Shown piece after piece: positions 10,164 to 44,307 of a stretch of 45,300 bases of DNA; position 1 is the first letter of the stretch, and every line of letters begins with the position of its first letter. The DNA comes from a virus: IMG/VR virus record IMGVR_UViG_3300025446_000247, positions 1 through 45,300 of that record; one strand, written 5' to 3'. Below the pieces are notes generated by a model. That model was not told the origin of the DNA, did no database searches, and worked only from the letters and a program-made list of their open reading frames with translations. The translations under genes and the position numbers were made by a program.

Positions 10164-11087
10164 TTACGTTGTTGGAAACTGCTTGATGTTGAGGTCGTCC
10201 GGCAGGTCGTGGCCCTTGCTTGGCCCGAATACGCTGCCCATTTGTTTCATAAAGAACGGCACGCCGGCTGACATACACTGATCGCGCAGGCTCCGCGCCC
10301 AGTCCGGATGCATCGGCCGCGCGCCGGGTCCACTCTCGCCGCCGCAGATTGTCCAGTCGAGGTATCTTCCTAGTTGCGCTCCAGGAACTTTGTCGTTCCT
10401 GATGTAGCAATTTCCACGAAGCTCCACCGGTCCCAGCAGCGGCTCAGCCGAGACAAACCGCACCGCCGCCGACGTTTGCAACAGCAGAGGAATCCGCACA
10501 TCCGCCGCCGCCTGGTTCTCCACGCTTACTCCCAACCAGACGTTGGGTAATGGCTGAGTTAGCCGATGATCCTTACGCGGTATGTCGGCGATACCTTCGT
10601 CGTGCCATCGAACCAAAATCTCTGCCTCGCGCAAGCCCCAACAAGTACTCAAATACTTCAGCATCCGCTCCGGCCTCTTCGTCAACACCTGAAACACGTG
10701 CTGAGGACACAACGCCATCACCGCGAAAATCTGGTCAATCCACTCATCCGGCACATTCTCATGGAAGAGGTCACTGACTGAGTTGACGAAGATGCGGCGT
10801 GAGCGATAATTCTGCCATCTACCAATACCGCGACCGCTGCCCGTCGTAAACAGTGACCCCCATTTCAGTGGGTCCAGCAGATGCTTTTCGACCAACTCAA
10901 CTTTGCCGGTCCAGTGAGCGCCGTCGCTCTTGATGACCGCCAAGCCATTGCCCCATTGACCAGGATCGCTGAAGCGAGCTGCCATCGTTTCCGCATAGCA
11001 GTGACGGCAGCCCTCGCTTACGCGCGAGCAGCCGCGAATAGGGTTCCAGGTTGAGTCCGTCCATTCGATACCTGTCTTCGTTCCCAT
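10164..11087 (-). CDS. Phage Gp37/Gp68 family protein (DUF5131)
   Basis: A 307-residue member of the Gp37/Gp68 family: GIEWTDSTWNPIRGCSRVS then EGCRHCYAE, with the conserved C-x6-C-x2-C cluster near residue 20, DPLKWGSLF, FVNSVSDLFHENVP, ALCPQHVFQVLTKRPERM, NVWLGVSVENQ, FVSAEPLL and WTICGGESGPGARP. The cysteine cluster resembles a radical-SAM-type iron-sulfur site, but the reaction is unknown. ATG 11087 has GGAAAGGAAAG as SD; an in-frame ATG at 11132 lacks one. Confidence 0.9.
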   Translation of the reverse strand: MGTKTGIEWTDSTWNPIRGCSRVSEGCRHCYAETMAARFSDPGQWGNGLAVIKSDGAHWTGKVELVEKHLLDPLKWGSLFTTGSGRGIGRWQNYRSRRIFVNSVSDLFHENVPDEWIDQIFAVMALCPQHVFQVLTKRPERMLKYLSTCWGLREAEILVRWHDEGIADIPRKDHRLTQPLPNVWLGVSVENQAAADVRIPLLLQTSAAVRFVSAEPLLGPVELRGNCYIRNDKVPGAQLGRYLDWTICGGESGPGARPMHPDWARSLRDQCMSAGVPFFMKQMGSVFGPSKGHDLPDDLNIKQFPTT

Positions 11088-11204
11088 GCTTTCCTTTCCT
11101 TGAACTTCAATGCGCGGTCCTTTGACGCCCATTGCTCTCCAACGTGTAAACACGCTCCGAGGGGCGGGCCACCAAGCCGCTGTTCTTCACAGTCTCCCGC
11201 GCAT

Positions 11205-14903: not shown

Positions 14904-17900
14904 TCAGAACCGGCTGGTTGCCTTGTGTCGCCGCGCATGGTGCGATGGCTCCACTTTCTTCGGCTTGACAACGTACCGGCTCAATGGAACTTCCTCATTC
15001 ATCCATTGCCTTTTGATCTTCTCCCGACGCTCGGCAGGGGATTCCTTGTGCGGACCGGTGTCCTTAAACGTGGACAGATAATCGAACAGACCTTTTCCCG
15101 TATTATAGGCGTCTCTGGGCGCAACGCCTACGATAAGATCAGACGTGGAGGAAAGCGCGCGACGCTGCTGAACCAATTTCCCTGCATCCTTCGCGTTATG
15201 AGTTGCAACTATCTGAAGCATCTGGTTTATTTCTTCGTTGCCTGACGCTAGGGCGAGGTAGGACAGATCCAAGGCGATAGCATTCGAGGATGCCGGATTC
15301 TCCTCGCACCATTTATCGCGGCGTTGTTCGATTCCTGCCTCTGAAGAGTGCGCCCATTCGTGCATCTTCTCGCGCAACTTGTTCAATCCATACCCAGCCA
15401 TTCCGAAAGCAATACCAAATCTGGCTATCAGTTTGTACGGCTCTGCACTCTTCCAGTAATCAGAATCCGCTCTCATGAGTTCATGCCAGACAGTCCTATT
15501 GATAAAACTATTTGTCTTAAACATGAATCCATGCAAAGACTGCGAAATACGAAGAATTGTCGTCAAGCGGTCATAGAGTGGATCACCCGTGGTTCCGCGC
15601 AACACCGGCGCAAGCTCTGACGGCCTTCCACTCCCTGTTGTCCAATTTGCCGATCCAACCTCGATACGTCTCACATCCGCTGCGCTGATGTTATTCTTGG
15701 AAATGTTGTCTATGTGCTCATCTGACATACCATAAAGATTCCCAAGTTTGCGGCGGATTGCTTGATACTTCTGGCTTGTTACGTGAGTAGTAGGATCTAT
15801 AACTCCGGCGTTTAACTTCTCGTTTTCCAGATACACTCTCCTTAATTCAGGGTAAGCGTACTTTTCAAACCAAATGCGTCCCGCAGCCGACGAAATCGCC
15901 CTGCTGAAATACAGTATCGCGGTGAAACCGTTCCACTTGAGGAGCTTTTGGTCAACTGTTTCCGTTTTCAATCCGTACTCTCTCATGAAAGACTGTTTTA
16001 CGTATTGCGCCATCACTCCGCTATCTACTGCATTTGCCTTTAGTTCTTTTGGGTTTGTCACCCCTTCGACTATAGCCAAGGCGAGGCTTCGCGTGTTTGT
16101 CGCCAACGGAACCTTAGCTAAATGGAAAGGTAGTTTTAGCGCGCTTGATCCCATCTTACTTAGAATCAGCCATTGGTTTACTCTCCTTAACGCCCAGCGG
16201 TCGCTATCGTGCAATCTGGCGGGATCAAGGTCTGATGTGATGATATGATTTACCATATCCCGGTCACGCTGAGTTGGCAATTTATCTATAAGCGCATCCG
16301 TCTTCTCGCGGAACTGTCCATGAACCTCGGCGGCAGCCAGGGTTTGCGCGACTTCTTGGACGTATCTTTCGAGCGTTCCTCGATTTCGTCCGTAAAGAGG
16401 AATATCAAACTCACGCGTCCTCTCTATGTTCCCAGCCAGACGAATTCCGCGATTGTTCCTGTCAAAGAATGCTTGCGCCTGAATCTTTGAGATGCCGCGT
16501 TGCTTGGCCACCATGTCTATCAGTTTTTCGCGGCGCTCACTTCCGTTGGGCATATTCAAGATTTCCGATAGAGTGGTGACCTCTGTTTTCCCGTCCGCCC
16601 CTTTTATTTTGATCGGCTCGTTCCATTCATAGATGCGCGGCCAATAGTGCGGATCGGATTCAAACGAGTCGAATGGCCTGTCGATCTTGAGTCCATCATC
16701 ATAGGAACGCACCACTATACCAGCATCTGCGCATCTTTGATGGACTGTGGCAAAAAATTTAGCGAGCTCATCCGCCGCTTTCTTGATGCGCGGATTGTTG
16801 GTTGTTGCCGATCCCTCAACAATTTTTGATACTAATTCTAACTCCGGCGCTGTGATTTTGTTTCTTGAGAGCGCCCTCTCAACCATACCACCAAATTCGC
16901 CGATGTGATTTCCCATCAGTTGATCGTACTCAATCATTCGGCGGCTTGCTTCCTTACCCTCTTCCGGCATTCCGGCGTTCCGGAAGATCTTCTCAACTGC
17001 AACATCTCCAGCCGTGCCAAACATCCATACAGTTGATTTGACAAGATGGGCGGCTGAACTAGCACTCTTCTTGGCTTTGTACTTCGGAATAGCCAACTTG
17101 TCCTCAATCGCATCAATCCACAACTGAGTTTCATTTGCTCTGCTGCGCATTGTCCGCGCAACGGCATTCTCGACTGACTCCCCGGTCCCCATCGCGGCCC
17201 GGCCAGCCTCTTCCGCCTCCAGGCGAATGACTCCCTCGTTGGCGGTGACGGCGCGCGCCTTTGGTGCCGGCAGTTTTTTGAGTTCGCCAAAGAGTCCATC
17301 CCACGCGGCGCTGCCCAGGCGCTCGAAGGGGTCTTCGTCCTTCGGGCCTTGGTAGAGCTTCTCGCCTTTCCCTTTGTACTTCATGCCCTTGTTCTTGGCT
17401 TTGGCTGCGTCCGGAATCTCCACATCATCAATATGTGTGTAGCTGACTCCCTTACCGTCCTGCTCGAAGTCCGCAGCATCCGGCTTCTCTTCGTCCTGCA
17501 TAAAATCTCTCACTTCGGCAGGGATTCCAGCGGCGTCACGAAACGCCTTAGACACATCCGATTCATACTTCTCGCCATAGACCGCCGCCTTCAAAGAGCG
17601 CATCCTGGGAAGAGTTTTTGTCGCCAGCGTCTTCATCTCGGGAAGCGAGTCTGATGTGAAGAAATACATGGCCACATTCGACTTCGATCCGTAGCGCCAC
17701 GGTCTAGCTGTGCCTTGCTCTAGCATCACTGGAGACCACGGTACGTCGATAAATAACGCCGCGCGAGGTTTTGTGCCTATTTTGTCTTGAGCATTAGCCC
17801 CAATGGAACCAGCGGCAAAGCTCATATACATCGCATCTTTTTCACCAGCCTGAAAAGCCTTCAGTTCACCTGCGCGAACCGCGTTATGCGGCCCAGCAAA

Positions 17901-20900
17901 GATAGCGATCTTGTCCCCAAAAGCCTCTCTCATCTTCTCTACCACATTCGGCAGGGGCGGCAGCATCTTGTTAATCTCCGCGCCCAGACCGGCCGGCAAT
18001 TCGTTAAAGAATTCCATTCCCTCCTCGGCCGGCGAGCGATACTCGGTGAACATGATCGGCGACCATCCTTTTGCGGACAAATCTTTTGCCAGTTTGATGA
18101 CATTCGGGAGCCTCGCCGCCGTCAGGTATCGCTTTAGATAAATAACCTCATGTCCCTTGACCGGGGTAATGTATTTGCTCATTCCCGCCTTCTGGAATGC
18201 GGCGCCTGCTTTGGCGAACGCGGCACGAATGCTGCGCACCCCGGCGCGAACTTCTTCCGTCTGAGGAACGAGCGCTACGCGCGCCTCGACTCCAGTCATA
18301 TCTTTATATAGCGTCTGCCACTGGCCACGCTCGATGAGTTGCTGACGCAATTTGGCGAGTTGCTCTGGCGTGGATCGGCTGCTGTATTCGTTTGGTCCGC
18401 TCTCGACCAATCCGAATTGTTTCGCCCATTGAGTGAATCCCCCTTTTGGCCACAAACCGAGCTTGTGCATATAGCCGATCTGCATGATCTTGGAGTATGG
18501 CGTTGCACTTGAGTAGACCACCTTCTTCGCCACATGGCCAAGGAGTGTCACAGCTTTCCCTTGCTCGGCTTCTTCCCAATTACTCGCCTCTGCGCTCTCG
18601 TCAAACAAGACAAAATCCCACGGCACGGATAGAACATCTTTGTCGCCCCTTATCGACGTATATGTTGTGGCGTACATCCCCGTCTGCAGTTGCGACATAT
18701 CGGATGGGAGATTATCCACATCAATTCCAAACTTGCGGGCTACGTCCATGAAACCGTCATCATCCTCAATCAAGTTACGACTTTTGGTTACAAGCAAACC
18801 AACCTTTTCACCGCCATCTCCGAGAAGATGATGAGCTATGGCTGACAGAAGCCACGTCTTTCCTGATCCGGCAGGAGCTGCGAGAATCGTCGCATCCTGA
18901 TGTTGAAGAGCCGAGAGAACACCTTCAGCGGCTTCCGCCTGCCCTAGATAGATCATCATCTCGCGCACGTCAGGGTCCAGCCGAACTGTAGGTGGCGGTG
19001 TGCCCTCCGGCAAGCCGAGAGCTTCTACGTATCCGCGCCATACGTCAGGGTCTACCACAGGGGTTCCGCGCGGCTTCTTGGGAGCCTGCAGACTTGCCGC
19101 CGGCACATCTGCCAAGGGATTTTTGCTCGGCTCCGCTATCTTCCCTGTTCTTGTCTTTCTTGGAGAACTCTCCCCAAGCGAAACCGCCGTCGGGTCTCCG
19201 TGTACTTGTTGCACGGTCACTGCTTGCGCCGGCGTCGTCGGCTCGTCCATCCGCGGCATCTCGCTGACGCCGTGAACAAGTTGAATAATACTGGTATCCT
19301 TCAGCTCCGGTTTTCCGGCACCAATAATACTGGTGGAGCCGCGCAGTTTATCTTCGATGTTATTCAACTGGCCGCGCAGTAATGCTCGACGTTCGGGATT
19401 ATTTTCCCGCTTCAAATCATCTTCAATAGACTTGGCCTTGCGTGCCAACTCGATTACTTCATTTAGCCCAGGTTGACGCAATTTCATTGATAAGCTACCA
19501 ACCCTTATGTATATAGTCTCCTCTCCTTTAACTTTTAACATCTCATAAAATCCAATCTTCTTGGCATTTCTCTTGACAAACGCCTTGGCGAGTTTTTCGT
19601 CCGTAAAAACCACATCCTGCGTCTTGCCAAACACGGGTCTGGCTGACTTCTCGATCACCTTCGCTTCTTTAGGAATTTCTACCTTGTCGGCGAACTCAGC
19701 AATAGCATCAATGTCCACTCTCTTTATGAATGGTTTGCGCTCAGCCGTACTCCAATCATGCCACTCATCAAACATGGCATCAAGTTCTTTGTTTCCCGGA
19801 CCATTCGCAAACGTGCGAACTGAATTATAGATGGACTGCATCGCCCGGCTTATGTGGGCAAACACACCCTCCATTTTCTTCGTACCCTCCGCGTTGCCGC
19901 GCTTAATTCCTCCATCGTGATAGTAGTGAACAAAAGCATCCGCGAATCTCTCCTCTTGCTCCCGCGACCACGGTTTACCGGGTTCCGCTCCAACAAATTT
20001 GTTGGCGATCTTCTGGTATTCAGGCTTCATAAACCTGCGAATGTGGTGCGCCATCTCGTGAAGATAAGTTGAAGAGTCTGCGGTGTCGCACAGGTGAATC
20101 ATCGCTTGCGCCTCGTTGAGCATTTGGAAATACCCGCCGCTCTTCGGAGCACTAGGATCTTCGCCGCCAAAAATATAGGTCAACCTGCGATTGCCGAGGA
20201 TGCTTTCCATGGATTCGCCCAACGCGGTCGGGAGAATGTGCTCAAACATCTGCGTGATCTTCTCGGTAGTCTCAATATCCTTGCTGATTTCCGGGTGTGC
20301 GGCCAGCGCCTTGCGCAACTCCCGCACTGTGCGCGGTCCTTCCGGCAGCGCATCGACCACGCTCGACGAGTCCGGCTGTACATCCGCAATCACCGTCTCC
20401 TGGTGCTCTTCCGGCTCAACCGGAAGCGGGCCGCGTCCATCCTCGATCGCCGCCTTGACCGAATCGGGAATAGGGGCAACTGATCCCCATTCTTCGGGAA
20501 TGACGTGCAGTGTATTGCCTTCGCCATTCTTGAACTTGCTGGCAATCTCAGCGTTAAACACATCCGCCGGATGTTCTGCGCCAAACATGTTCGGCTTGGA
20601 CCTGTCAGCATACTTCGCCATCATCAGAGCGTATTCGCGAGGAGTCTTCTCAAGCGCCATTGCCAAGGCAACAACCGCATCGGTTTCTGGATGCCCTAAC
20701 GATTGACCCTCAACAAAGGAAAAAGTATCTAAGCCAAGATCACCTTGCTCCGCTCCGAACCCTCTCTCGTCCTGATAGTTTCCAGTGTAGAGATACTTCT
20801 CTATAAGCGAAGAGCTTCCCGCTCCCTTTACTACAACATCCGGCTTCCCTATAAGGCGAGACAGCCTATAGGAAATATCTTGAGCTTTTGTGATAAGACG

Positions 20901-23900
20901 CACGGCATCTGAGTTATAGGAAGCGAGATTCCAACTATCCCCGGCACTCTTTGCCTTGACAAAGAATATCCCGGCGCGTGCCAATTTGTTCCTCACATTG
21001 TCCGATATGCCGTCAAGCGCCTTGGGGTCGCTCACAGTCAAACCGACCAGCATATTCTCTATGAGGTTCTTGGCTTTCGGAGTGAGGTCGCCCGCCTTGT
21101 CGCCATCCTGAACAATAAACTCAGACCTCTTGTTTGGCGCGATAATCCCCGCATCTGCCAGAAGGTTCGCAATATCGGCTGACCGCGCACGCATTGCCGT
21201 GCTCAGGGAAATAGAGCTTTCTTTCCCTTGCTTATCTATTTCGACCTGGGGCAGTGAAGAGAATATATCGTCGAGACGGTCGAGGTATTCCGGCGTCAAT
21301 AGCCGCGCCATCGCCACGCCTTCCTCTTCTGCGCTCGATCCTTTCATTAGATCGCGATTTGACTCTTCACCAAGTCTCGTCCATTCGATTTCGTCGGTAA
21401 CAGGTTCATCCAGGAGCCTGTACACATCGTATGGTTCCGTCCCAAACTCTACCTGCCCGGCAGCGTCGGAAAGTCCAAACCGGTCAATGCGCGTTGATCT
21501 GAAATTCAATAACTTCTGGTAAGCGTCAGGATGGAGGAGCCGCGCTCTTTGCCGGATCATCTCCCGGCCATTGCCGCCAAAGACTTCAAGAACTGTTACA
21601 TTTCCATCCGCATCCATGCGCCATGCGAGAAGCGGCGGACCTTCCATCGTTCCCGGTGTATCCGAATACAAAATCCTACCGTCTGGGTTGGCCCCCTTTA
21701 CGGTAATATCTGTCTGATCTCCCTTGTTATTTTCGTAGCGCCGTTTCTGAACTTTCTGGTCGTATCCCTCAGTGGGCTCGAAAGTTATAGGGTGGTGAGA
21801 CGTGCGCACAGCCTTTGATGGAAGCAGAACATAGTGGGCCTTTAATCCATCCGGGTGATTCGGCGTGACGATTTCCGTCGCAGCGCCGAGAACCAACTTC
21901 GGACGGGGACGACCAGGGGGCGGGGGCGGAGCCGGATTTACTACCGACTCCGCTCCTGCTACGACAGCTTCCGCCTGTTGCCGGGCGTTGTCTGCCGCCT
22001 GCTGTGCGGCCTCGGCCGCAGCCGTCTGACCTTGCGTGTGAAGGTCGTCGGCGGCTTGTTGCAGGTCACTGGACTGAATTGATAACCGTGCTACCCTCTC
22101 AACTGCATCGGCGCGCGCTTCTTCAGGATTGTCTCTGAAACTGGCCGCCGTCTTTTCCGCCAACTCCCTCGCAATATAATTCTCCCCCGCCGCGCGCACC
22201 TGGCGCATCCGGGTCAGAAACTCACTCATCGCTGGGGTACGCTTGGATTCGGAAACCTTCTTGACGACCTCTTCGAGTTTGAACGGATCGTCTGTATGCT
22301 CCAGCATGACCGCGCTGAGGTTCTTCGTCTGCTCCGATAGCCCCCGTCTAACCCGGTTCACTTCATCGAGAGACGGCGATCGCCCGGTCTCCGAAGCAGT
22401 GATTGCCGCCGCGAGTTCTTTGTGATGGCTATCACGCTCCTCTGTGACCATGCGCGCGGCAAGGTCTTCATCCATCGCCCGGCGAATCGAGTCGCGCTGG
22501 TCCATGCGTAGACTGGCACGCTGCCGCATCATGCCCTGGGCGTCCATGTTGGCAATGTCGATATGCTGACCGGTGCGCATTCGCTCGATGAGGTCCACCG
22601 TCATAAACGAGCGAACCTTTTCCGGCTTCGTGCGCAGGTAGTCGGCCAGCGCCGGCGCGCGCATCTCGGCGGGAAGTGAGTCGAAGGATTTTCCGAGGAG
22701 GCGCTCCGTGTGCGCGTTGAGGTCGTGGGCGGTCGCCGGGTCCGCCTTGAGAACGGAGTCGATGTTGCTGCGGTTGAGGATGAGCTTGGCGGTTCCGGCG
22801 GCAAGGTCCGCGCCCGGCGCCAGCGGCTGCTCGTCGCCCGTGGCGTTACGCTCCAAATACTGCTTGACCGCGGCATCGATCATGTCCGCGTGCTTCACGT
22901 CGGAGAGGTGGCACACGTATGCCGGAGTCTTCTTGAAGGCTTCCCACTGTTCGGGATGGTTCTTCTCCAGCCAGGCCGCGGCGAACTTCTGGCGATCGAC
23001 AGGCAGCGAGGTGAACAACTGGCCAAACTGCGCTTCGGTGCGCTCTTGCACGGCGCGCTCGGCGGCCGTGACCTGGGCGTGCTCTTCGGGTGTTGGCTCC
23101 CCGGAGGCTCTCGCTATCAAAGTCTTTCCGTACTTGTTCCATTCCCTATGACGTTCCTGCCAATCCGTGGGCATGAAATCTACAACTTCTTGATGTATTC
23201 TAGCTGTGCTCCAGTCAGGGTTACGACGGGCCACATTGCCATAAATTCTCTGATACCGAGCATCATCTTTGGGATCAGTTAGTTCTTCAGGTGTGGACTC
23301 TGCGGCAGCGGCGCGGCGGTCGACGACCGGGATGACTGGCTCTGCTGGTACAGGTTCGTCTCTCTGCTCCGGTCCCGCCTCGCGCTCTGAGGTTTTTACG
23401 GTGGTTCGGCGTTCGAGGAGTTCCGGGTCTTCGCGATTTTCGGTGACAGAAAATCCACGCTGCTCCTCGGCGGAGACGATCATATCAGCACGCTCGGCGG
23501 CGTGGCGAGCGTCCTGCTGCTCGTCGATTGCTTTACGGGCGGCGGCTTCGCGCTGGGTCGCTTCGTGCTTGTAGGCCTCGGCGCGCGCCTTGCGCTCAAC
23601 GATCTGGCGAATAAGTTTCTTGGCGGCCTCCAGGCGCTGCTGGCGAACCTCTTCCGTGGTCAGCTCGGCGGCCTCCGCTCCAGCTTTGGCCGCACGCGGG
23701 TCGATGCCAACCTTTTTGAGTAGCGGACGCCCCTCTGCGTCTTTCCCTACACCGTGGAAGAATCGCGGAGTCACTCGCTTTTGATTAAGCTTCGCTACTT
23801 CCTGGTCCACGCGCTTTTTGAATCGCGGGTTGGCATCCTCAACCGCCTCATAAAGAACGGATGCTTTCTCGTTTGGAGTCAGGTCACCAAACTTTTTCTT

Positions 23901-25115
23901 GTAGGCTTCCTGTGCCTTGTCGTTGAGAATGGCGGTAGTGTCGCGATTTTGGAAGACATCTACCCCGGAACGAATTGCGCGCTCTCCAGTACCCATCGCG
24001 ACAATGACGGCGATGTTTCCGAGCATCCCGCCCCAGGCTTCCGAACTGGCACCTGTATCGCCCTTTGCGGCAGCCTCTGATGCTCCCGCAATTCCTTCGA
24101 CGCCGCTCTTCGCAATGTCGGCTTGGAACACCAATCCCATCGGCTTCGAGATAGACTCCGGAGCCATGTAAATCGCGGCCAGGGAATAAATGTTCTCAAT
24201 GCTGGTCATGCCCTCGACAGACTTGGTGAAGCCGGTCACGCCGCGAGAGAATATGTTCTTACTCTTCGGATCAAAGACTTTCTGGAAGGCCGCACTTTCA
24301 GCAACTGGTGTCAGTGTAGATCCAAAGTTTTCCTGAATGCTCTTCTGGAGACCAAGGGTTTGTTGAGCTTGCGCATTTCCCTGCGCTGCCCACTTCTGTA
24401 AGAACACCTGTGGGTCTACATCGGTCCCGCTGATAAGCGCAGGCGGTATGTTGGGCATCCCCCCAGGTCCACTGCCACCAAGAAACAAATCGTACATGGC
24501 GGAAGAACCCTTTTTAGTCCAACGCCACCATGTAGGCTCATAGCTGGGTTTTGGCTGCTCTGTCGCGGTTGGTTGAGCAGTCTGCGCTTGGGCCTGCATA
24601 TCCCAACGATCTGCGCTGTATACCTCCTTATCTATCCTCTCATCTACGCCACGAACTTGCCGCAACTCATCGTCAGTAAAAACCGGCTGCAAATTAAATC
24701 CATGATTAGGCTTGGGCAGTGCGCTACGAAGATTTTCCTCGTAAGCACTCAAGTCTTTGAGATAGCGCAGTTCATCCGCCTCATTCGCAAAGTTCGTCGA
24801 TCCAACGGCCATCATCGGGGCTATCGCGGCGACGTGCGGAACTTTAGAGAACGGAACCTGCTTCACTTGGCCATTAACCTTAACGGCGTAGGTTCCCTCG
24901 CGGTCTGGATTCTCTTCGATCTTAGCGAGATTGTCGGCGGCTTTTGGCACACTCTGCGGCTGATGCACGGACACGGAGAACTGCTTCCCGCGGACAGGAA
25001 TCTTGAACGTCCTGCCCTGGTGCTCGTGTTCTTCCGGGGCAGCGTTCCTTACGGGAATCTTGAACGTCTGAAGGGAAGGCGCTTCGGTCGTCGTAGTCGC
25101 GGTTTCGTCTGCCAT
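14904..25115 (-). CDS. Giant polyvalent protein: ddrB/ParB-like, zincin and SF2 helicase domains
   Basis: A 3403-residue multidomain protein of the DarB/polyvalent type, probably packaged and ejected with the DNA to protect or process it in the new host. In order: two FKIPVR motifs near the N-terminus; a coiled coil about 490-550; a ddrB-type ParB-like domain about 1075-1210 (VLLPSKAVRTSHHPITFEPT, VLEVFGGNGREM); zincin HEMAHH (His1686, Glu1687, His1690); SF2 helicase with Walker A APAGSGKTW (Lys2086), Walker B VLFDES (Asp2172), YSSATP and motif VI QGTARPWR about 2470; and a long helical C-terminus (about 2650-3403) typical of these proteins. It starts 5 nt after the previous gene; its SD AGGCGAG overlaps that stop. 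Confidence 0.85.
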   Translation of the reverse strand: MADETATTTTEAPSLQTFKIPVRNAAPEEHEHQGRTFKIPVRGKQFSVSVHQPQSVPKAADNLAKIEENPDREGTYAVKVNGQVKQVPFSKVPHVAAIAPMMAVGSTNFANEADELRYLKDLSAYEENLRSALPKPNHGFNLQPVFTDDELRQVRGVDERIDKEVYSADRWDMQAQAQTAQPTATEQPKPSYEPTWWRWTKKGSSAMYDLFLGGSGPGGMPNIPPALISGTDVDPQVFLQKWAAQGNAQAQQTLGLQKSIQENFGSTLTPVAESAAFQKVFDPKSKNIFSRGVTGFTKSVEGMTSIENIYSLAAIYMAPESISKPMGLVFQADIAKSGVEGIAGASEAAAKGDTGASSEAWGGMLGNIAVIVAMGTGERAIRSGVDVFQNRDTTAILNDKAQEAYKKKFGDLTPNEKASVLYEAVEDANPRFKKRVDQEVAKLNQKRVTPRFFHGVGKDAEGRPLLKKVGIDPRAAKAGAEAAELTTEEVRQQRLEAAKKLIRQIVERKARAEAYKHEATQREAAARKAIDEQQDARHAAERADMIVSAEEQRGFSVTENREDPELLERRTTVKTSEREAGPEQRDEPVPAEPVIPVVDRRAAAAESTPEELTDPKDDARYQRIYGNVARRNPDWSTARIHQEVVDFMPTDWQERHREWNKYGKTLIARASGEPTPEEHAQVTAAERAVQERTEAQFGQLFTSLPVDRQKFAAAWLEKNHPEQWEAFKKTPAYVCHLSDVKHADMIDAAVKQYLERNATGDEQPLAPGADLAAGTAKLILNRSNIDSVLKADPATAHDLNAHTERLLGKSFDSLPAEMRAPALADYLRTKPEKVRSFMTVDLIERMRTGQHIDIANMDAQGMMRQRASLRMDQRDSIRRAMDEDLAARMVTEERDSHHKELAAAITASETGRSPSLDEVNRVRRGLSEQTKNLSAVMLEHTDDPFKLEEVVKKVSESKRTPAMSEFLTRMRQVRAAGENYIARELAEKTAASFRDNPEEARADAVERVARLSIQSSDLQQAADDLHTQGQTAAAEAAQQAADNARQQAEAVVAGAESVVNPAPPPPPGRPRPKLVLGAATEIVTPNHPDGLKAHYVLLPSKAVRTSHHPITFEPTEGYDQKVQKRRYENNKGDQTDITVKGANPDGRILYSDTPGTMEGPPLLAWRMDADGNVTVLEVFGGNGREMIRQRARLLHPDAYQKLLNFRSTRIDRFGLSDAAGQVEFGTEPYDVYRLLDEPVTDEIEWTRLGEESNRDLMKGSSAEEEGVAMARLLTPEYLDRLDDIFSSLPQVEIDKQGKESSISLSTAMRARSADIANLLADAGIIAPNKRSEFIVQDGDKAGDLTPKAKNLIENMLVGLTVSDPKALDGISDNVRNKLARAGIFFVKAKSAGDSWNLASYNSDAVRLITKAQDISYRLSRLIGKPDVVVKGAGSSSLIEKYLYTGNYQDERGFGAEQGDLGLDTFSFVEGQSLGHPETDAVVALAMALEKTPREYALMMAKYADRSKPNMFGAEHPADVFNAEIASKFKNGEGNTLHVIPEEWGSVAPIPDSVKAAIEDGRGPLPVEPEEHQETVIADVQPDSSSVVDALPEGPRTVRELRKALAAHPEISKDIETTEKITQMFEHILPTALGESMESILGNRRLTYIFGGEDPSAPKSGGYFQMLNEAQAMIHLCDTADSSTYLHEMAHHIRRFMKPEYQKIANKFVGAEPGKPWSREQEERFADAFVHYYHDGGIKRGNAEGTKKMEGVFAHISRAMQSIYNSVRTFANGPGNKELDAMFDEWHDWSTAERKPFIKRVDIDAIAEFADKVEIPKEAKVIEKSARPVFGKTQDVVFTDEKLAKAFVKRNAKKIGFYEMLKVKGEETIYIRVGSLSMKLRQPGLNEVIELARKAKSIEDDLKRENNPERRALLRGQLNNIEDKLRGSTSIIGAGKPELKDTSIIQLVHGVSEMPRMDEPTTPAQAVTVQQVHGDPTAVSLGESSPRKTRTGKIAEPSKNPLADVPAASLQAPKKPRGTPVVDPDVWRGYVEALGLPEGTPPPTVRLDPDVREMMIYLGQAEAAEGVLSALQHQDATILAAPAGSGKTWLLSAIAHHLLGDGGEKVGLLVTKSRNLIEDDDGFMDVARKFGIDVDNLPSDMSQLQTGMYATTYTSIRGDKDVLSVPWDFVLFDESAEASNWEEAEQGKAVTLLGHVAKKVVYSSATPYSKIMQIGYMHKLGLWPKGGFTQWAKQFGLVESGPNEYSSRSTPEQLAKLRQQLIERGQWQTLYKDMTGVEARVALVPQTEEVRAGVRSIRAAFAKAGAAFQKAGMSKYITPVKGHEVIYLKRYLTAARLPNVIKLAKDLSAKGWSPIMFTEYRSPAEEGMEFFNELPAGLGAEINKMLPPLPNVVEKMREAFGDKIAIFAGPHNAVRAGELKAFQAGEKDAMYMSFAAGSIGANAQDKIGTKPRAALFIDVPWSPVMLEQGTARPWRYGSKSNVAMYFFTSDSLPEMKTLATKTLPRMRSLKAAVYGEKYESDVSKAFRDAAGIPAEVRDFMQDEEKPDAADFEQDGKGVSYTHIDDVEIPDAAKAKNKGMKYKGKGEKLYQGPKDEDPFERLGSAAWDGLFGELKKLPAPKARAVTANEGVIRLEAEEAGRAAMGTGESVENAVARTMRSRANETQLWIDAIEDKLAIPKYKAKKSASSAAHLVKSTVWMFGTAGDVAVEKIFRNAGMPEEGKEASRRMIEYDQLMGNHIGEFGGMVERALSRNKITAPELELVSKIVEGSATTNNPRIKKAADELAKFFATVHQRCADAGIVVRSYDDGLKIDRPFDSFESDPHYWPRIYEWNEPIKIKGADGKTEVTTLSEILNMPNGSERREKLIDMVAKQRGISKIQAQAFFDRNNRGIRLAGNIERTREFDIPLYGRNRGTLERYVQEVAQTLAAAEVHGQFREKTDALIDKLPTQRDRDMVNHIITSDLDPARLHDSDRWALRRVNQWLILSKMGSSALKLPFHLAKVPLATNTRSLALAIVEGVTNPKELKANAVDSGVMAQYVKQSFMREYGLKTETVDQKLLKWNGFTAILYFSRAISSAAGRIWFEKYAYPELRRVYLENEKLNAGVIDPTTHVTSQKYQAIRRKLGNLYGMSDEHIDNISKNNISAADVRRIEVGSANWTTGSGRPSELAPVLRGTTGDPLYDRLTTILRISQSLHGFMFKTNSFINRTVWHELMRADSDYWKSAEPYKLIARFGIAFGMAGYGLNKLREKMHEWAHSSEAGIEQRRDKWCEENPASSNAIALDLSYLALASGNEEINQMLQIVATHNAKDAGKLVQQRRALSSTSDLIVGVAPRDAYNTGKGLFDYLSTFKDTGPHKESPAERREKIKRQWMNEEVPLSRYVVKPKKVEPSHHARRHKATSRF

Positions 25116-25120
25116 CTCGC

Positions 25121-26824
25121 CTACTTGTCTACCGGCTCATAGCCTTGTTCTTTCAGTTGCTTCTTCATGGTATCCCAATGGGCATCAGTTGCGCCCTTGT
25201 TTTCCTTTATGAAGTCGGATTTCCAAACCTCTCCCTTGGATTGCTTCTTACCGCCCGTCGCCGACGGAGACGAGGCCGCCGGCGCGGACGCAGCACCCGC
25301 CTGTGGCGATCCAGGCGTCGTGGTGCTTCTCTTCTCCCTCACATTCACGGGCTCCGGCGCTGAGCTATCGCCAATAAACGGATGGAATCTGCCTTGTTGA
25401 ATCTCGTCTGCCAGCGTGCTAGGAAGCGCGAACTGTTTGCTCTTCATCGTCTCCTCTATTGCATCTTGAAGAGCATTCTCCATATCTTTCACTTGACCCT
25501 GACCCGCATTTCCAAAAAGTTTCTTCGGAGCATACCTTGGAGACCCGTATTGGAGATATTTTCCATTGTGACCAACAATGTTTGATAGAGCCTTGTCAAT
25601 ATCAACCTGGTCACCGTCTTGATTCACTGCATCCTTAGAGTTGCTTCTAACAACACTCATCGCGTGTTCAAGAACGGCGCTCTCGTACTCCATGGCTTTT
25701 TCTTCGCTGCTCAAATAGGAACTGGCTCTCGCGGCACTATCTTCCGCATCCTTTGGACTTTTCGCCGCCACGTCCGCTAAATCTTTCAGATCGCCTTGAG
25801 AGAGGTTTGTGTATCTCTTCGACAAGTCTCTGTACACTTGGAGGGAATGTTTTCCTTCAGGGGTGTTGGAAAACATCGGCGCTCCGCCACCAGACTCACT
25901 ACCGCCGCCGCCAGACCTATGTCCGCGAGTCGATTCCTCGGCTATCCACTCTTCATAAGATCCCTTGTATCCTTTCTTGAGGGCATCATCGTAATCCTTC
26001 CGCTTCAACTCGGATGCAGTTGGAGGCTTGGTCGGAGGCTGGAAACCTTCAGGAACTTCAACAGGTACATATCTTCCATCTTGCAATTCAAAAGGCTTCT
26101 TCTTTCCGTCCTCCCCGGCAAGCCATTCGACTTTTCCTGTGCTTTCCGAAGGCTTCGGCGGGTTCACCACGGCATACGCTTGGTTGTACTGCTCGCGCTG
26201 CGCCTGCCCTGCCGGTGACTCATACCATTTGGTCATAGAACTCATCGGCGAGCCAACCAGTTTACGAATTTGCAGCAAGGCTGACGCTTTCTCTTGCGGG
26301 TTGCCTGTCTGCATAATCTGTTTGAGTTTTTCTATCTGCTGCTGTGGAGTTTGAGGTTGGTCTGTCGGTTGCTGGCTTTGTGCGCCCTTCTTCGACGACT
26401 TTTTAGGCTTGCTGCCACCGTCTGGACCGTTTACCATTTTTTCCTGCCAGTCCAGCATTGCCCCATAAGAAGTCTGCTCTGCCAACTTGGCTGTCTTGTA
26501 ATCATCGCTGTTGGGGTCAACACCAGCCTTTATCAATTCGTTAAGTTTTTGCTCATCGTTTTTATGAGACGCAACCAGACCGTCGCTCTTCGCCTTGAAC
26601 TGCCCGGCCACCTTCTGCGCGGCCGCCGCCTTGCCGTTCATGTAGCCCTTGAAGATGTTGTCGAGGAGTCCGGCTGCGGCTCCCGCCTTTGAGATCGGCA
26701 AGCCGGCGAACTGAAATGGCTGACTTTGCGGAACTGGGGGCGGGGGTGGAGCTGGCTCGGGCGGCTGGTACGCCTGGTAGGTTGGCTGCGAAATGGTTGG
26801 ATCGTATTCGTTCTTCGTCGGCAT
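25121..26824 (-). CDS. Probable internal virion protein, 567 aa
   Basis: Proline-rich N-terminus (PPEPAPPPPPVPQSQPFQFA), then helical Ala/Lys-rich segments (AAAAQKVAGQFKAKSDG), a Gln-rich linker (QQPTDQPQTPQQQIEKLKQI), a Ser/Gly linker and a C-terminal helical part ending in MKKQLKEQGYEPVDK. No enzymatic motif is seen. Its position between the tail-hub region and the giant polyvalent gene matches where podoviruses keep ejected proteins. ATG 26824 with SD GGAGACG is preferred to the longer frame to 26998, which overlaps the upstream gene. Confidence 0.65.
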   Translation of the reverse strand: MPTKNEYDPTISQPTYQAYQPPEPAPPPPPVPQSQPFQFAGLPISKAGAAAGLLDNIFKGYMNGKAAAAQKVAGQFKAKSDGLVASHKNDEQKLNELIKAGVDPNSDDYKTAKLAEQTSYGAMLDWQEKMVNGPDGGSKPKKSSKKGAQSQQPTDQPQTPQQQIEKLKQIMQTGNPQEKASALLQIRKLVGSPMSSMTKWYESPAGQAQREQYNQAYAVVNPPKPSESTGKVEWLAGEDGKKKPFELQDGRYVPVEVPEGFQPPTKPPTASELKRKDYDDALKKGYKGSYEEWIAEESTRGHRSGGGGSESGGGAPMFSNTPEGKHSLQVYRDLSKRYTNLSQGDLKDLADVAAKSPKDAEDSAARASSYLSSEEKAMEYESAVLEHAMSVVRSNSKDAVNQDGDQVDIDKALSNIVGHNGKYLQYGSPRYAPKKLFGNAGQGQVKDMENALQDAIEETMKSKQFALPSTLADEIQQGRFHPFIGDSSAPEPVNVREKRSTTTPGSPQAGAASAPAASSPSATGGKKQSKGEVWKSDFIKENKGATDAHWDTMKKQLKEQGYEPVDK

Positions 26825-26832
26825 CTCGTCTC

Positions 26833-27375
26833 CTATGTAAATAGAGCAGCCAGTCCCGTCGCTCCGCCAGCGGTTGTGGTATCGCCGATCATCCCAGCTA
26901 TGTCGCCGCCTAAAGAGCCGAACGCGCCTAGACTCTGCCCTTTCTGCTGGGCGGCCAACTGCTGTCCCTCGATCTGTTGCTGGCCGACTTGACCCCATCC
27001 CTGATTTGCCGTTCCGAGTCCGGAGATGGCCGCTCCAGCGGACGAGATTCCCTCGGCGGTTCCTTGGCCGGCGAGCTGCGAGAGAGCTGAAAAGCTATTG
27101 AGGTACGACCCGGTTGCCGCACTTCCCACCTGCGCGCCTTGCGCCACATCGGCGCTTTCCAGAGCCAGCGCCGTCGCGCCGCTGGCCGGCGCATTGTTCA
27201 TGATGTTCTGTTTGGCTCCGGCTGTGGCCTTGGCGATCTGTTGGGTTGCAGGAGATATTGCGCGAGAAATGGCGTAGGGATCTCCCGACGCCAAAGTTTG
27301 ATTGTAATTTTCACTTTGCTGAAAGCCGGGATTTGACTCGTTGAAGAGCTGAGAACTTTGCTGTTGTTGCTGCAT
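26833..27375 (-). CDS. Gln/Ala/Gly-rich virion-type protein, apparent 5' frameshift
   Basis: A 180-residue frame (ATG 27375) rich in Gln, Asn, Ser, Ala and Gly: QQQQQSSQLFNESNPGFQQS, ATAGAKQNIMNNAP, ALSQLAGQGTAEG. The ATG has no SD, and the open frame extends upstream without another standard start (IFTGKSATGVSPQVQNSGIQ). A strongly initiated short frame at 27431-27514 in another phase leads into it, so the real gene probably starts at 27514 with a one-base shift in the A5/T5 run at 27457-27461. It is probably a small structural or ejected protein; no family is recognised. Confidence 0.65.
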   Translation of the reverse strand: MQQQQQSSQLFNESNPGFQQSENYNQTLASGDPYAISRAISPATQQIAKATAGAKQNIMNNAPASGATALALESADVAQGAQVGSAATGSYLNSFSALSQLAGQGTAEGISSAGAAISGLGTANQGWGQVGQQQIEGQQLAAQQKGQSLGAFGSLGGDIAGMIGDTTTAGGATGLAALFT

Positions 27376-28369: not shown

Positions 28370-29551
28370 TCAAAACGGCAACTCCGGCTGTATATCGTCC
28401 TCGATCGCCGCCACAACTTCGCACCTGCAGCCGGGGAATTGGCGCTCGAAGACCTCGAATTGCACGGCAACCGCCTCGGCCGTCCGCTCCACGAGCTTGT
28501 CGTGTAGCAGCGCGCCGTTGGCGTCAAATGCCTGGACGACGACCCAATCCTCAACGGCAAATGGCGCGGCGCGTTCCGCCTCGGGAATGACTTCATCGAC
28601 CTCTGGCCACTGCACATCGATCACTGGCGCGGCAACGGGCGGCGCGGTGCGCGGCTGTGGAACAATCTTGAGCGGCCCGACCTGCGCCTCTTCGACCATT
28701 CTCGGATTGAAGAAGTAGATCCCGGCGCCGTTCTCCCCTTGCGCGATCACCTTCAAGTCCATACCATCGGGGATCCCCGGCACGTAGGTCGAGGTGTACG
28801 GGAAGTAGACCACCGCAATCTCTCCGGCGGCCAGGCGTTGCACCTGAGCATCTATCGCTTCGCGTGGAGTGTCGGTCAGCAGGGGGAGAATCAGCGGTTC
28901 TTCAACCTCTTCCGCCCGGTACTGCTTGACCAGGAAGTCGGCCACATACTGCTCGAAGTCCTCGCGCATCAGCGCCGAGACCACCAGCGGAACGAGTTTG
29001 GTCTCGCGCAACTGGAAGCAGGGAATCTCGCCGCAGTCCTTGAAGCCGAAGCGGCCCATGAACTTCGCGGTGAGCGTGTTGTCGGTATATCGGTTGCCTA
29101 TGATGGCGCGCAGGTCAAATTCCTTGAAGATGTAGGCAAGGCCCAGCATGGTCACAATCTGCTGGTCTTCGGTTCCCCAGGCTTCACGAAAGAAACCATA
29201 CCCGGCGATCATCGACCTTTCCGTGCTGTTCGTCCCGATCATGACGGTCGGGAAAGCAAAACCGAGCTCGTGAAACTTGTCGCCTTCCCACCGGCCAAGG
29301 ATAAGCAGGAAGGCGCGGCTGGAAAAATAGGTGACGATGGAATTGAAGTCGGACGCGGGGTTGCCGCCAAAAAGAGCGTCGAGTATTCCGTTCCCAGACC
29401 GGCGCTTGGACTCGCGACAGCGATTGTACAGATGGCCAAGATAGTCGTCGGGGAAGAGATCGGCGTTCTTCTTGTCGTAGCGGATGGCGGCCAGATCGCC
29501 GAGGCGATAGCCGTCTTCTTTCAATGCCGCCAGAACGTCAACCTCACTCAC
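28370..29551 (-). CDS. GNAT-like virion-module protein, 393 aa
   Basis: The first 180 residues look like a GNAT acyltransferase-type fold: an acceptor-side region MIAGYGFFREAWGTEDQQIV, then LRAIIGNRYTDNTLTAKFMG and RFGFKDCGEIPCFQLR, the usual N-x(4)-A...xxGF ending. A clear acetyl-CoA pyrophosphate loop (Q/RxxGxG/A) is not seen, so activity is uncertain. The C-terminal half (VYFPYTSTYVPGIPDG, QFEVFERQFPGCRC) is unassigned. It ends with QPELPF. ATGA overlap links it to the membrane protein upstream. Similar GNAT-like proteins occur among podovirus late genes. Confidence 0.65.
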   Translation of the reverse strand: MSEVDVLAALKEDGYRLGDLAAIRYDKKNADLFPDDYLGHLYNRCRESKRRSGNGILDALFGGNPASDFNSIVTYFSSRAFLLILGRWEGDKFHELGFAFPTVMIGTNSTERSMIAGYGFFREAWGTEDQQIVTMLGLAYIFKEFDLRAIIGNRYTDNTLTAKFMGRFGFKDCGEIPCFQLRETKLVPLVVSALMREDFEQYVADFLVKQYRAEEVEEPLILPLLTDTPREAIDAQVQRLAAGEIAVVYFPYTSTYVPGIPDGMDLKVIAQGENGAGIYFFNPRMVEEAQVGPLKIVPQPRTAPPVAAPVIDVQWPEVDEVIPEAERAAPFAVEDWVVVQAFDANGALLHDKLVERTAEAVAVQFEVFERQFPGCRCEVVAAIEDDIQPELPF

Positions 29552-31548: not shown

Positions 31549-31791
31549 TCATACCCTCACTTCACGAGCCGTAAACTGCTTCATTGTCTCGGGAAAATCG
31601 CGTTCATCATCAGAGAGGCGGTAGATTCTGTGCTCGTCAACATAGTTCGTCTCCATAAACCTCTCGTAGCAGGCAAAGCATTTGACGTGCCCATCCACCA
31701 TAAACACCCCTTTAGGGTGTCTCGACCTGCATTTTTTGTCTTCGCATTGTTTTGGCACTGGAGATCGTCCTCTGTTACGTTTGAAGTTCAT
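31549..31791 (-). CDS. Small zinc-ribbon-like protein, 80 aa
   Basis: CEDKKCRSRHPKGVFMV and then HVKCFACYERFM give a C-x4-C...C-x2-C cluster near residues 16-41, a probable zinc site. The rest is charged (DEHRIYRLSDDERDF). It overlaps the end of the large tail gene by 17 nt, and its stop lies just before the inverted CGCTTGCAA pair. Family not recognised. Confidence 0.6.
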   Translation of the reverse strand: MNFKRNRGRSPVPKQCEDKKCRSRHPKGVFMVDGHVKCFACYERFMETNYVDEHRIYRLSDDERDFPETMKQFTAREVRV

Positions 31792-34700
31792 ACGGCTTGA
31801 ATGTATTACCCGCCCCTACCGGCTTCCATTCGATCTTGATTGGCGCCCACATCTGGAAGTGTTCCGGCGGGACCGCTCCAGTTGACAGCGCAACCAGCCT
31901 CCATGTCCTGAAGGTGAACGCCGTCGTCCCTGGGTTGTTGTTTCCAAACCTCTGCCGGATCACCGTGCGCGTCGCGGCGGCCGGCAGTGTGAACGTAAAG
32001 TACGGAATTGCGTTGTTGTCGGCGTAGAGGCTCACATCAATTGCCACCGGGGAACTGTAATCGAAGTAGGCTTGCTTGGCAAACTTCGACTCGTCCGTCC
32101 CGAACTTGATCCAGTAAGAGTCGATGGTCGCCGTCAGCTCCGCCAAGACCGCCGCGTAGATGTCCTCCTGGTAGAGAATCGGCGCAACCGTCACCGGGAT
32201 GGTGTGAACGATCGACGCGCGGTATGCTTCCTGGCCGAGCCCGCTGTTGACGAAGAGTTCTACCTTCTGCCTGGTCGCCGTCGAGGCGTTCGCCAGTGGA
32301 ACTGAGATCGCTCCGTCCTCGAAGAGCAACGTCGAGGTCATCACCTGGCCCTGCGTATTCACGTCCGTCTCGTAGGCATTCCATGATTTCGTATTATGCG
32401 GCTTGCCAAGGTCGCGGTACGGATGCTGGACGGTTATGGTGATCGGAGTCTGGACTAGAGCTGGGGGTGTGGCTGTGTTCCAGCCGCCGTCGTCGTAGTC
32501 GCCCACCTGGTCCTGTACCACGGCGTACTTCCCGGTCCCGATCTGCTTGCCGACGAGGAAGACGTTCGTGTCTTTCTCCCAGAACATTGCGGTTGCCGCC
32601 ACGTCGTCGTAGCGGAAGCGCTGGTAATTCGTGTCGTACACCATGCGATACCGCGGGCTGCCGACGTTGAGGCTGATGTACGACCCGAAGACCATGTTGT
32701 TGTAGTAGGCGAAAACGTCCTGGCCGGCTTGGGTTGGATCCGCTTGCGGCGGGATGCACTGCGGGTTGCCGCGGAAGATCCATTCGATCGGCAGCGTTTT
32801 GTACACACCGTCGGCGCCGGTAAATTCGCGCCAGCCGTCGGCAGCACGATACCAGACAGCGCCTTCAACCTCGACCCAGCCATTGCGCGCCACGATGCCA
32901 TGCACAGAGCCTGTCGGCTGAGGATAGGGATTTGCCCCGCCCACGATGATCTTCCACGTCTTCAGCGTGCCGACAATAAGCGTCCCGCGCCAGTTGATGA
33001 CCGCATTGATTATGTCGTCCGGAGTTGAGACGGGAATGTAGTTCTGCGGCCCGAAATTCTCCGGCAATCCCTTCTTTGAGTAGTAAAGGTTGTTGGGATT
33101 GTTCGCGTCGCCGGCCAGCCATACCTGACCGTAGGCCTCGGCACACAAACTGCATGGCTGCCGGGGGATGGCGTAAACGCTGACCGGCTCGCCCTGGTTG
33201 TGCTGCAGACGGAGAATTGCTGTGAAGGTTCCCGTTCCGCCCGTGATGACCGCCACCACCTCTTCGTTCGACGGGTTGCCGATGATGGCAAGTTGGTTCT
33301 GTACGAACACCGCGCCGGTTTGCGCCACGGTCACAGTCCGCGGGCTGAAGGTGCTGTAGATTGAATTCAAACTGGAAAGCGTGGTCGCCGCCGCCAGCGT
33401 CGTCTGAATCGGCGTGACAAGGGAACTGGTCACCGGCGGGTCATTGTCAAGCACCAGAATCTGCGCCTGTTGAATGTAGGAATCCGCGATCACATCCTTG
33501 AAGACAAACTGGCCGGTTCCCGTCACATTCGGTATCTGGCCGACTTGGACCCAATTCGACGAAAGAGTCCCGCCGCGGCGATACTGGCGCACATGAGTCA
33601 CCTGGGGGTCCGGAGAATACTGCCCCACTACTTGCGCGGCCTGCCGCAAGAAGATCGGCGCGGCCGTCGAGGCCAGATAGCCGTAGTCTTCATTGAACAT
33701 CTGCTCCGGGTTCGGCGACGATTCGGTCCCGGTGTTGGCATTGTAATATGTCTGCCGGTAATCGTAGCCCACGCCCGCAAACGACGATGGGCCGTATCCC
33801 CATTGAAGATAGAGACCGTTGACCGAGAACGACACCCCGCCATTCGAGTTTGTCGTAACCGTCAACTGCCACCCCGTGACGTTCGACCAGTCGACACCAG
33901 CCTGCCCCGCTTGACCAACCGGCAGAAAGTTTCCGCGCGGAATGTAACACGCTTGCCACGACCCCGAGCCTGTCGAGATATTTGTCGGTTGCAACTGCGC
34001 GCTGATTGTTCCTGCGGGCTGCCCCGTAATCAATCCGAGATTGTCCGCAAGTATCTGGTTTTCCGTTGCCTGATATGCAGTCGTATTTCCGCTTATGGCT
34101 CCTTGATAGTAGGCCGGGGAAATGAACGCAGAATAGTAGTTGGCTGTTCCTGAATTTGTGAAGAACTGTAACTCTATTTGGCTTATGTTCGCCGGATTCG
34201 ATACCAGCAATGTCAGAACTATCAAATCCGCATCCGTCACTTGATTGTTTTGATTCAAGTCCAGATTTACTATCTTGCTCACCGTCGCAGTTGAGCTTGC
34301 CCCCGCAATCGTCCCGCTCCATGCTCCCAGAGGAAACGCGGTAGTCGATGGGGGAACCCACTCATAGAAACCCCATGCGGACATCTGTGACGGATACGGA
34401 GAAGCGTACTGATCTGTAAGAACACATGCGGAAGGCGCATCGGCGTCGCCTGAACCCGCGGTTGTATAAGTAACATATCCTCCAATCGCTCCAATTTGCA
34501 CGGCGGACTGGAAGGCAATCGTAAGAGATGTGGTGGACGGCGCCGAGATCACTTCATAGAATCCGTCAACTAGATCGCTCGACGACGCATAGATGGCCAT
34601 CAGGTCGTTCGCAACGAGACCGTGCGCGGTCGTCGTATTCACAAGCAGTTGAGTATATACGCCTCCAACAAGAGTCTGCGATGTGACGCTGGAGATCGGA

Positions 34701-43300: not shown

Positions 43301-44275
43301 TCACCCAGTAATTCCTGACAAAATGAAGCCCAGGCGCGACGCGCTGACCACGATGTTGCCGCCGAAGCAGAGCTGGCCGGCGGAGTCAACCGAGTTCGGC
43401 AGTTCCTTGAAGCCGGTGAACCCGAAGCCAAACAGTTCGTGATCCGAGATGTGGACATTCACGAAGTCGGTGTTCATGCCGAAGACGTATCCGGTCGGGC
43501 AATACTGGTCAACGACGAGCCGCTGGTTGTTGAACCGGATGGCCGTGAAGCCGATGTTCTGCGCCTGGTCAACCATGATGTTGTCGTTGACGCGCTGCGC
43601 CGGAATCAGCTTGTTGTAGAGCTGGTTGTAGATCGACTGCGTGGTTGCGATCAGGTTCGGTTGGCGGTTGCCAAAGGTTCCCTGGCCATAGGCCTTCTGC
43701 AGCGCGGTGATCGACAGCGGCCCGGCGATGTTGGCGTAGTAGCCATTGATGCCGGTCGAGGCACCCGAGCCGATCGCGGCGCGGGGGAGGCCGCCATAGG
43801 TCGGATAGTTGGTGCCATCATCATACCCAGCGAGCAGGCCGTCCAACGCAATCTGCGAGGACACGGTTCCCTGGCCGTCGTTGTAGATGTCGGTCGCCAA
43901 CGCCTGAGCCAGCGCCTGCGAACCGTTGATCATCTTCTCTTCGACGAAGCTCATTACCGCGTTGTTGCCCATGTTGATCGGCAACTGCGTGCCCTGAATG
44001 GTCACGTTCGCGTAGTAGAACTTCACCGCGAAGGTCATCGCCGTGTCCGTCTGGACATAGGAGATGTCGAAGGTGGAGCCTGGAGCGAACGGGCCAGCCT
44101 TCAGCGGCGCGTACTGAATCGGCTGCTGGATGTAGAGGCCACCCGGAAAAGGCTTGACCGTCTCACCTTTGAAGATCTGAACGAAAACCGGAGATACCTT
44201 GTAATACTCGTCCACGATCTCGGGGACAATCTCCTGCTTCGTTACTGCGCTGATGTCATTGATGTTAAGCGCCAT
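43301..44275 (-). CDS. Major capsid protein
   Basis: A 324-residue protein with the marks of an HK97-fold capsid subunit: NINDISAVTKQEIVPEIVDE, a spine-type helical region (EEKMINGSQALAQALATDIY), GLLAGYDDGTNYPTYGGLPR, an A-domain part with FGNRQPNLIATTQSIYNQLY and RFNNQRLVVDQYCPTGYVFG, and a C-terminal FGFTGFKELPNSVDSAGQL. It follows the probable scaffold gene directly. ATG 44275 has SD GGAGG with 6-nt spacing; an adjacent GTG at 44278 is less likely. Confidence 0.8.
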   Translation of the reverse strand: MALNINDISAVTKQEIVPEIVDEYYKVSPVFVQIFKGETVKPFPGGLYIQQPIQYAPLKAGPFAPGSTFDISYVQTDTAMTFAVKFYYANVTIQGTQLPINMGNNAVMSFVEEKMINGSQALAQALATDIYNDGQGTVSSQIALDGLLAGYDDGTNYPTYGGLPRAAIGSGASTGINGYYANIAGPLSITALQKAYGQGTFGNRQPNLIATTQSIYNQLYNKLIPAQRVNDNIMVDQAQNIGFTAIRFNNQRLVVDQYCPTGYVFGMNTDFVNVHISDHELFGFGFTGFKELPNSVDSAGQLCFGGNIVVSASRLGFILSGITG

Positions 44276-44307
44276 CACTGGCCTCCGTTGTTAAAGTTTG
44301 TTGAGTC

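Follow-up and report, generated by a model that had tools for sequence, protein, structure and literature searches.

The giant gene, its neighbours and its relatives

The window analysed here is the entire IMG/VR record IMGVR_UViG_3300025446_000247, 45,300 bases in length. Its minus strand carries an open frame from 14904 to 25115, exactly where a sequence-only reading had placed it. The frame holds 3403 stop-free codons, takes up 22.5% of the window and has a log10 chance probability of about -66. Eight relatives of the encoded 3403-residue protein, here called the giant, were found, seven on IMG/VR contigs (L002, L003, L004, L010, L012, L017 and L042) and one, L035, on CAILAZ010000285.1, a contig of 10 kb assigned to the bin of an uncultured Acidobacteria MAG, which is a weak hint at the host. 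L010 and L035 are 5'-truncated, the other six (L002, L003, L004, L012, L017 and L042) are full-length; counts out of nine comprise the window giant and the eight relatives. In alignments with six relatives the dN/dS of individual segments was about 0.02-0.5 where dS was measurable. Thus, the frame is under purifying selection and constitutes a real, maintained gene.

The architecture was common to all eight relatives wherever their sequence is complete; conservation along the protein was uneven. Identity of the window protein to L002 was 98% for the SF2 domain and 93% for the putative zincin; it dropped to 41% for the C-terminal region and to 27% for the N-terminal one, and DNA identity fell in step, from 94% via 51% to 41%. 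Such sharp switches within the gene (14904-25115), seen against L002 and L003, would fit an exchange of modules. Most distant was L042, with 31-53% identity from residue 1260 on and 29-32% in the ddrB domain and in residues 690-1060. When the window protein was compared directly with phages by tblastn, the sole match was one of 28% in the SF2 part, to two Ruegeria phages, and among 50,697 phage records tblastn detected no full-length relative. An initial genome scan with the SF2 alignment recovered no relative, and PDB sequence searches with four domain alignments gave chance matches only.

The giant gene is the last of a cassette of three on the minus strand. It is preceded by the gene of a 567-aa protein (25121-26824; GGAG Shine-Dalgarno sequence, start at 26824) and, before this, by that of a 180-aa Ala/Gly/Gln-rich protein (26833-27375). 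The order small-medium-giant equals that of genes 14-15-16 in T7, 35-36-37 in phiKMV and 52-51-50 in N4; an ejection operon has been described (PMC8954989). The equation of the small and medium genes with gp14/gp52 and gp15/gp51, respectively, rests on their place and composition and not on homology. In every relative in which both were seen, the medium and giant genes are adjacent. A major head protein is encoded at 43301-44278, upstream of the giant and in the same direction. Downstream, on the same strand, follow an integrase, a DnaB-like helicase, a RecT-like annealing protein and an exonuclease. Searches of seven records with portal profiles of the T7 and P22 types were negative; the T7-type search had no positive control.

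Further genes of the window deserve mention. The minus-strand gene at 31775-35896 codes for a 1373-aa protein without Pfam or PHROG match, probably a tail or fibre protein; a gene for 1368 aa is at the corresponding place in L003. A 393-aa protein (28370-29551) has a very weak acyltransferase-like match (phrog_4470), as in three relatives, and in phage TPWB-05 an annotated acetyltransferase immediately precedes the small internal virion protein. A 329-aa protein (10164-11153) matches phrog_2045, a family of unknown function, at 7e-103.

The cassette proteins are strikingly poor in cysteine. The giant has 4 in 3403 residues, the 567-aa and 180-aa proteins have none. Over the giant family, 23 cysteines were counted in 28,278 residues (0.08%), compared with 0.99% in 16 other window genes; control genes on the same contigs had 0.28-0.81%. 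Cysteine is also absent from T7 gp15 and gp16, N4 gp50, gp51 and gp52, phiKMV gp35-37 and the large and medium ejection proteins of P-SSP7. For N4-like vRNAPs the absence of cysteine has been linked to passage via tail and periplasm (PMC3715699; PMC2784036). The property is not unique to ejection proteins; it is met in some other proteins of the virion region, and several other proteins of the Pseudoalteromonas phage vB_PalP_Y7 have no cysteine, e.g. one of 1385 aa.

Domains of the giant protein

The N-terminal region (residues 1-470; 23706-25115) is fast-evolving, with 27-72% identity across relatives and Ala/Gly-rich, weakly hydrophobic stretches. Hydropathy of the giant revealed no clear membrane helix; the peaks of T7 gp16 are just slightly higher.

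A ddrB-like ParB domain occupies residues 1079-1258 (21342-21881). PF18763 was matched by four of seven family members (best 1.1e-17). The window copy by itself was missed in this search because it is too divergent; an insertion precedes its GNGR motif (residues 1181-1184; 21564-21575). In this motif N1182 and R1184 are kept in all nine proteins, and R1184 may be the active-site arginine. A family HMM retrieved DdrB of phage P1 (1.9e-14) as well as proteins of Y7, TPWB-05 and ABMM1; L042 found P1 DdrB directly by tblastn (2e-7). The structure model agreed, with DdrB-like phage models as BFVD match (2.1e-7), at a mean pLDDT of 56 for the model covering the domain. VIA-align of the 1070-1960 model listed ParB N-domains (5k5d, Z 5.9; 6sdk, Z 5.6), yet the ParB chains, at Z 4.9-5.9, are middling and stand amid many unrelated rows from one helical hairpin (model residues 811-864). 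Foldseek of the same model had no PDB match at E <= 0.001. The ddrB/ParB-like domain of the sequence-only reading is borne out.

A conserved helical region without family match (residues 1260-1590; 20346-21338) leads to a putative zincin metallopeptidase (residues 1600-1800; 19716-20318). Its HEMAH motif (residues 1686-1690; 20046-20060) contains Glu1687 at the position proposed beforehand. HExxH is present in eight of the nine members, i.e. the window copy and seven of eight relatives, and is followed by a conserved segment, QEE.F...Y..DGG. E1721/E1722, candidates for the third metal ligand, are conserved. Five of seven members matched phrog_9880 (best 1.4e-7), a family without annotated function. 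The HExxH context and these matches agree with the metallopeptidase claimed earlier; among the matches listed for the 1070-1960 model there was no zincin fold. L012 has EEVGH instead (L012:8465-9211), and about 49 extra residues stand right behind it, signs of a degenerate peptidase; either the first histidine was lost or there is a sequence error. That the zincin processes virion proteins, as the earlier reading had it, would follow from the HExxH motif only. Autoprocessing by the peptidase has been proposed for P1 DdrB and N4 vRNAP (PMC5512222). A small beta-beta-alpha-beta-beta unit without family assignment is predicted by the model at residues 1819-1874 (19494-19661).

An SF2 ATPase follows (residues 2040-2540; 17496-18998). 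AAA_34 and ResIII scored above curated cut-offs for the window protein, in line with the earlier SF2 assignment, and both were found in all six members scanned. The motifs are Walker A (GSGKT, 2083-2087, with K2086 where it had been predicted), DESA (2172-2175), SAT (2203-2205) and QGTARPWR (2467-2474); motifs I, II, III and VI are present in nine of nine members. The closest families are AAA_34 (strawberry notch) and ResIII. Because the strawberry-notch AAA_34 and SNF2-type families are mostly dsDNA translocases, translocation on dsDNA appears more likely than unwinding, and the earlier suggestion that the protein unwinds DNA is doubtful. A match to Terminase_6N, below cut-off, was confined to the giant's own Walker region and is an artefact.

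The C-terminal helical region (residues 2600-3403; 14907-17318) is a proposed gp16-like ejection region. It ends in a basic tail with a net charge of +6 over the final 20 residues. In four of seven members this region matched, weakly, phrog_342, 'internal virion protein with endolysin domain' (best 9.4e-8). A motif Y-x-P-[RH]-x-Y-[DE] was shared by all nine giants (YWPRIYE in the window, residues 2824-2830; 16626-16646) and T7 gp16 (YVPHVYD at 665). A T7-type gp16 profile, queries with phiKMV gp37 and P-SSP7 gp16, and hhalign against the giants gave no significant match. Because the T7-type profile fails, we do not file the giant as a T7 gp16 homologue. The structure model, with pLDDT 43, was too poor for a fold search. 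Phrog_21376 is common to the C-terminal regions of L035 and of the Y7 giant. The sequence-only reading had supposed that residues 2550-3300 may hide further domains; at least part of this stretch would be gp16-like ejection region. Its long helical arms are consistent with the models, which are mostly helical at low confidence. Family searches of the giant returned no lytic transglycosylase, RNA polymerase or tape-measure family, and the unassigned regions had no methylase match.

A candidate ejection protein and the alternatives

Two hallmarks of polyvalent proteins are found in the giant: a single polypeptide that combines several dissimilar catalytic or effector domains, and a late (virion) gene neighbourhood formed by the head gene and the cassette. 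Cassette and cysteine depletion further suggest that the protein is injected with the DNA. We favour, at a probability of about two in three, the reading of the giant as an ejection protein of a podovirus-type phage, the third and largest in its set, which occupies the position of T7 gp16 or N4 vRNAP and carries polyvalent enzymes as cargo. Cassette order, cysteine depletion, the phrog_342 match, the basic C-terminus, the cargo domains and the comparable placement of the TPWB-05 protein argue for this assignment; the failure of the T7-type gp16 profile and of hhalign, the poor C-terminal model, the missing lytic transglycosylase, the want of a clear membrane helix, the negative portal profiles and the cysteine depletion of some other virion-region proteins argue against it. 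The N-terminal lytic transglycosylase of T7 gp16-type proteins is absent in the P22 type; membrane helices near the C-terminus are a further trait of the T7 gp16 type. The sequence-only reading had made its functional proposals conditional on ejection, and gene order, cysteine depletion and the gp16-family match now lend support to this condition. Judged here from the genes alone, the particle would be short-tailed and contain the giant.

Under the ejection-protein assignment, the operon suggests that the giant is produced late, alongside the two smaller cassette proteins (180 and 567 aa), and is packed into the head. After adsorption the small and medium proteins would form a channel across the envelope, through which the giant would be threaded largely unfolded, as N4 sets a precedent. 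We propose that the giant avoids cysteine because of this passage. The N- and C-terminal regions may remain at the channel and membrane, and the domains between them may regain their fold in the cytoplasm. There, the zincin might trim a host target or the giant itself, the SF2 ATPase might travel on the dsDNA as it enters, and binding or cutting of DNA might fall to the ddrB-ParB domain. The outcome would be protection or handling of the incoming genome during the initial minutes of infection.

A more speculative extension, to which we give little credence, would anchor the ATPase where the ejection channel opens into the cytoplasm, there to act as an ATP-driven motor pulling the genome into the cell. 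T7 gp16 is thought to ratchet DNA into the cell; to our knowledge no ATPase domain is known for this mechanism. Were the motor real, the ejection protein would bring its own ATPase. How genome entry is powered in short-tailed phages would become testable with a dsDNA ATPase tethered to the channel.

The most serious competitor, which we consider unlikely though well ahead of the other alternatives, is that the giant is a polyvalent antirestriction protein of the DarB/DdrB kind, packaged and injected outside the channel, with a C-terminal region that serves for packaging or as a linker only. The domain kit is that of polyvalent proteins, through its ddrB-ParB domain the giant is connected with P1 DdrB and with Y7's 4675-aa 'DarB-like antirestriction' protein, and phrog_21376 joins the C-terminal regions of L035 and the Y7 protein. 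However, gene position and the phrog_342 match indicate a channel-associated ejection protein, and no adenine methylase was found, the domain with which ATPases of this type are usually paired in DarB-type proteins. In polyvalent proteins this methylase hardly ever occurs unless fused to an ATPase of that type (PMC5512222). Antirestriction by the giant, as envisaged in the sequence-only reading, is thus possible and, because no methylase was found, unsupported.

Great length, a mostly helical make-up, low cysteine and a virion gene neighbourhood would also suit a long-tailed phage's tape measure, or another long structural protein, with acquired enzymatic domains. Yet the giant ends the structural block and is followed by recombination and replication genes instead of baseplate genes, no tape-measure family matched, and 3403 residues would make an exceptionally long tape for a record of 45 kb; we regard this origin as very improbable. 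Equally little speaks for an intracellular enzyme that is produced during infection and never packaged. The ATPase and peptidase domains and the replication genes downstream would be in line with such an enzyme, but the coupling to two cysteine-free cassette genes is tight, and cysteine depletion extends to the SF2 domain, which has none in nine of nine members compared with 7 in 606 residues in the free SNF2 helicase of DSS3P8.

If the ejection-protein assignment is true, the ejection channel is a general vehicle for the delivery of large enzyme cargo, and near-absence of cysteine is a cheap sequence hint for proteins threaded into the host. Two groups that are seldom considered together, the ejection proteins of podoviruses (T7 gp16, N4 vRNAP) and the polyvalent conflict proteins (P1 DdrB/DarB), would meet in one polypeptide.

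Comparison with known systems

The class of polyvalent proteins and the ejection protein as a vehicle are known, with TPWB-05 and Y7 as precedents. New is a full-length family in which ddrB-ParB, zincin and SF2 ATPase are set on a gp16-like C-terminal region, and new is that the ejection-protein and polyvalent-protein lines of evidence are brought together.

Polyvalent proteins that are encoded by late genes and contain MPTase, ddrB-ParB and SWI2/SNF2 domains have been described (Iyer et al. 2017, PMC5512222). The giant similarly unites ddrB-ParB, a zincin-type peptidase and an SF2 ATPase in a single late-gene polypeptide; it differs by its gp16-like C-terminal region, and neither a methylase nor an LPD36 module was detected in it. 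DdrB of phage P1 (995 aa), annotated as a possible metallopeptidase, has the homologous ddrB-ParB domain, whereas it is a separate, smaller protein in another context and has no SF2 ATPase. The giant of the isolated phage Y7 (L049:126-14153, 4675 aa, 'DarB-like antirestriction protein') shares ddrB-ParB, Walker A and, via L035, the C-terminal phrog_21376, and with zero cysteine it resembles the nearly cysteine-free window giant; it is longer and has a DNA methyltransferase module, and HExxH was not found in it.

On the side of the ejection proteins, T7 gp16 and phrog_342 have in common with the giant the cassette position, the tyrosine-proline motif, the basic C-terminus and a weak profile match. 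The giant is 2.6 times longer than T7 gp16, has no transglycosylase and is missed by the T7-type profile. N4 vRNAP (gp50) and its Schitoviridae counterparts correspond in size (about 3,500 aa), in being last in a small-medium-giant cassette, in carrying enzyme cargo in mid-protein and in the scarcity of cysteine, which is few in the giant and zero in gp50. Instead of an RNA polymerase domain, which was not found, the giant has an SF2 ATPase and ddrB-ParB. In TPWB-05, finally, a ddrB-ParB protein stands at the gp16 position, after an 'internal virion protein' and a 'head protein'.
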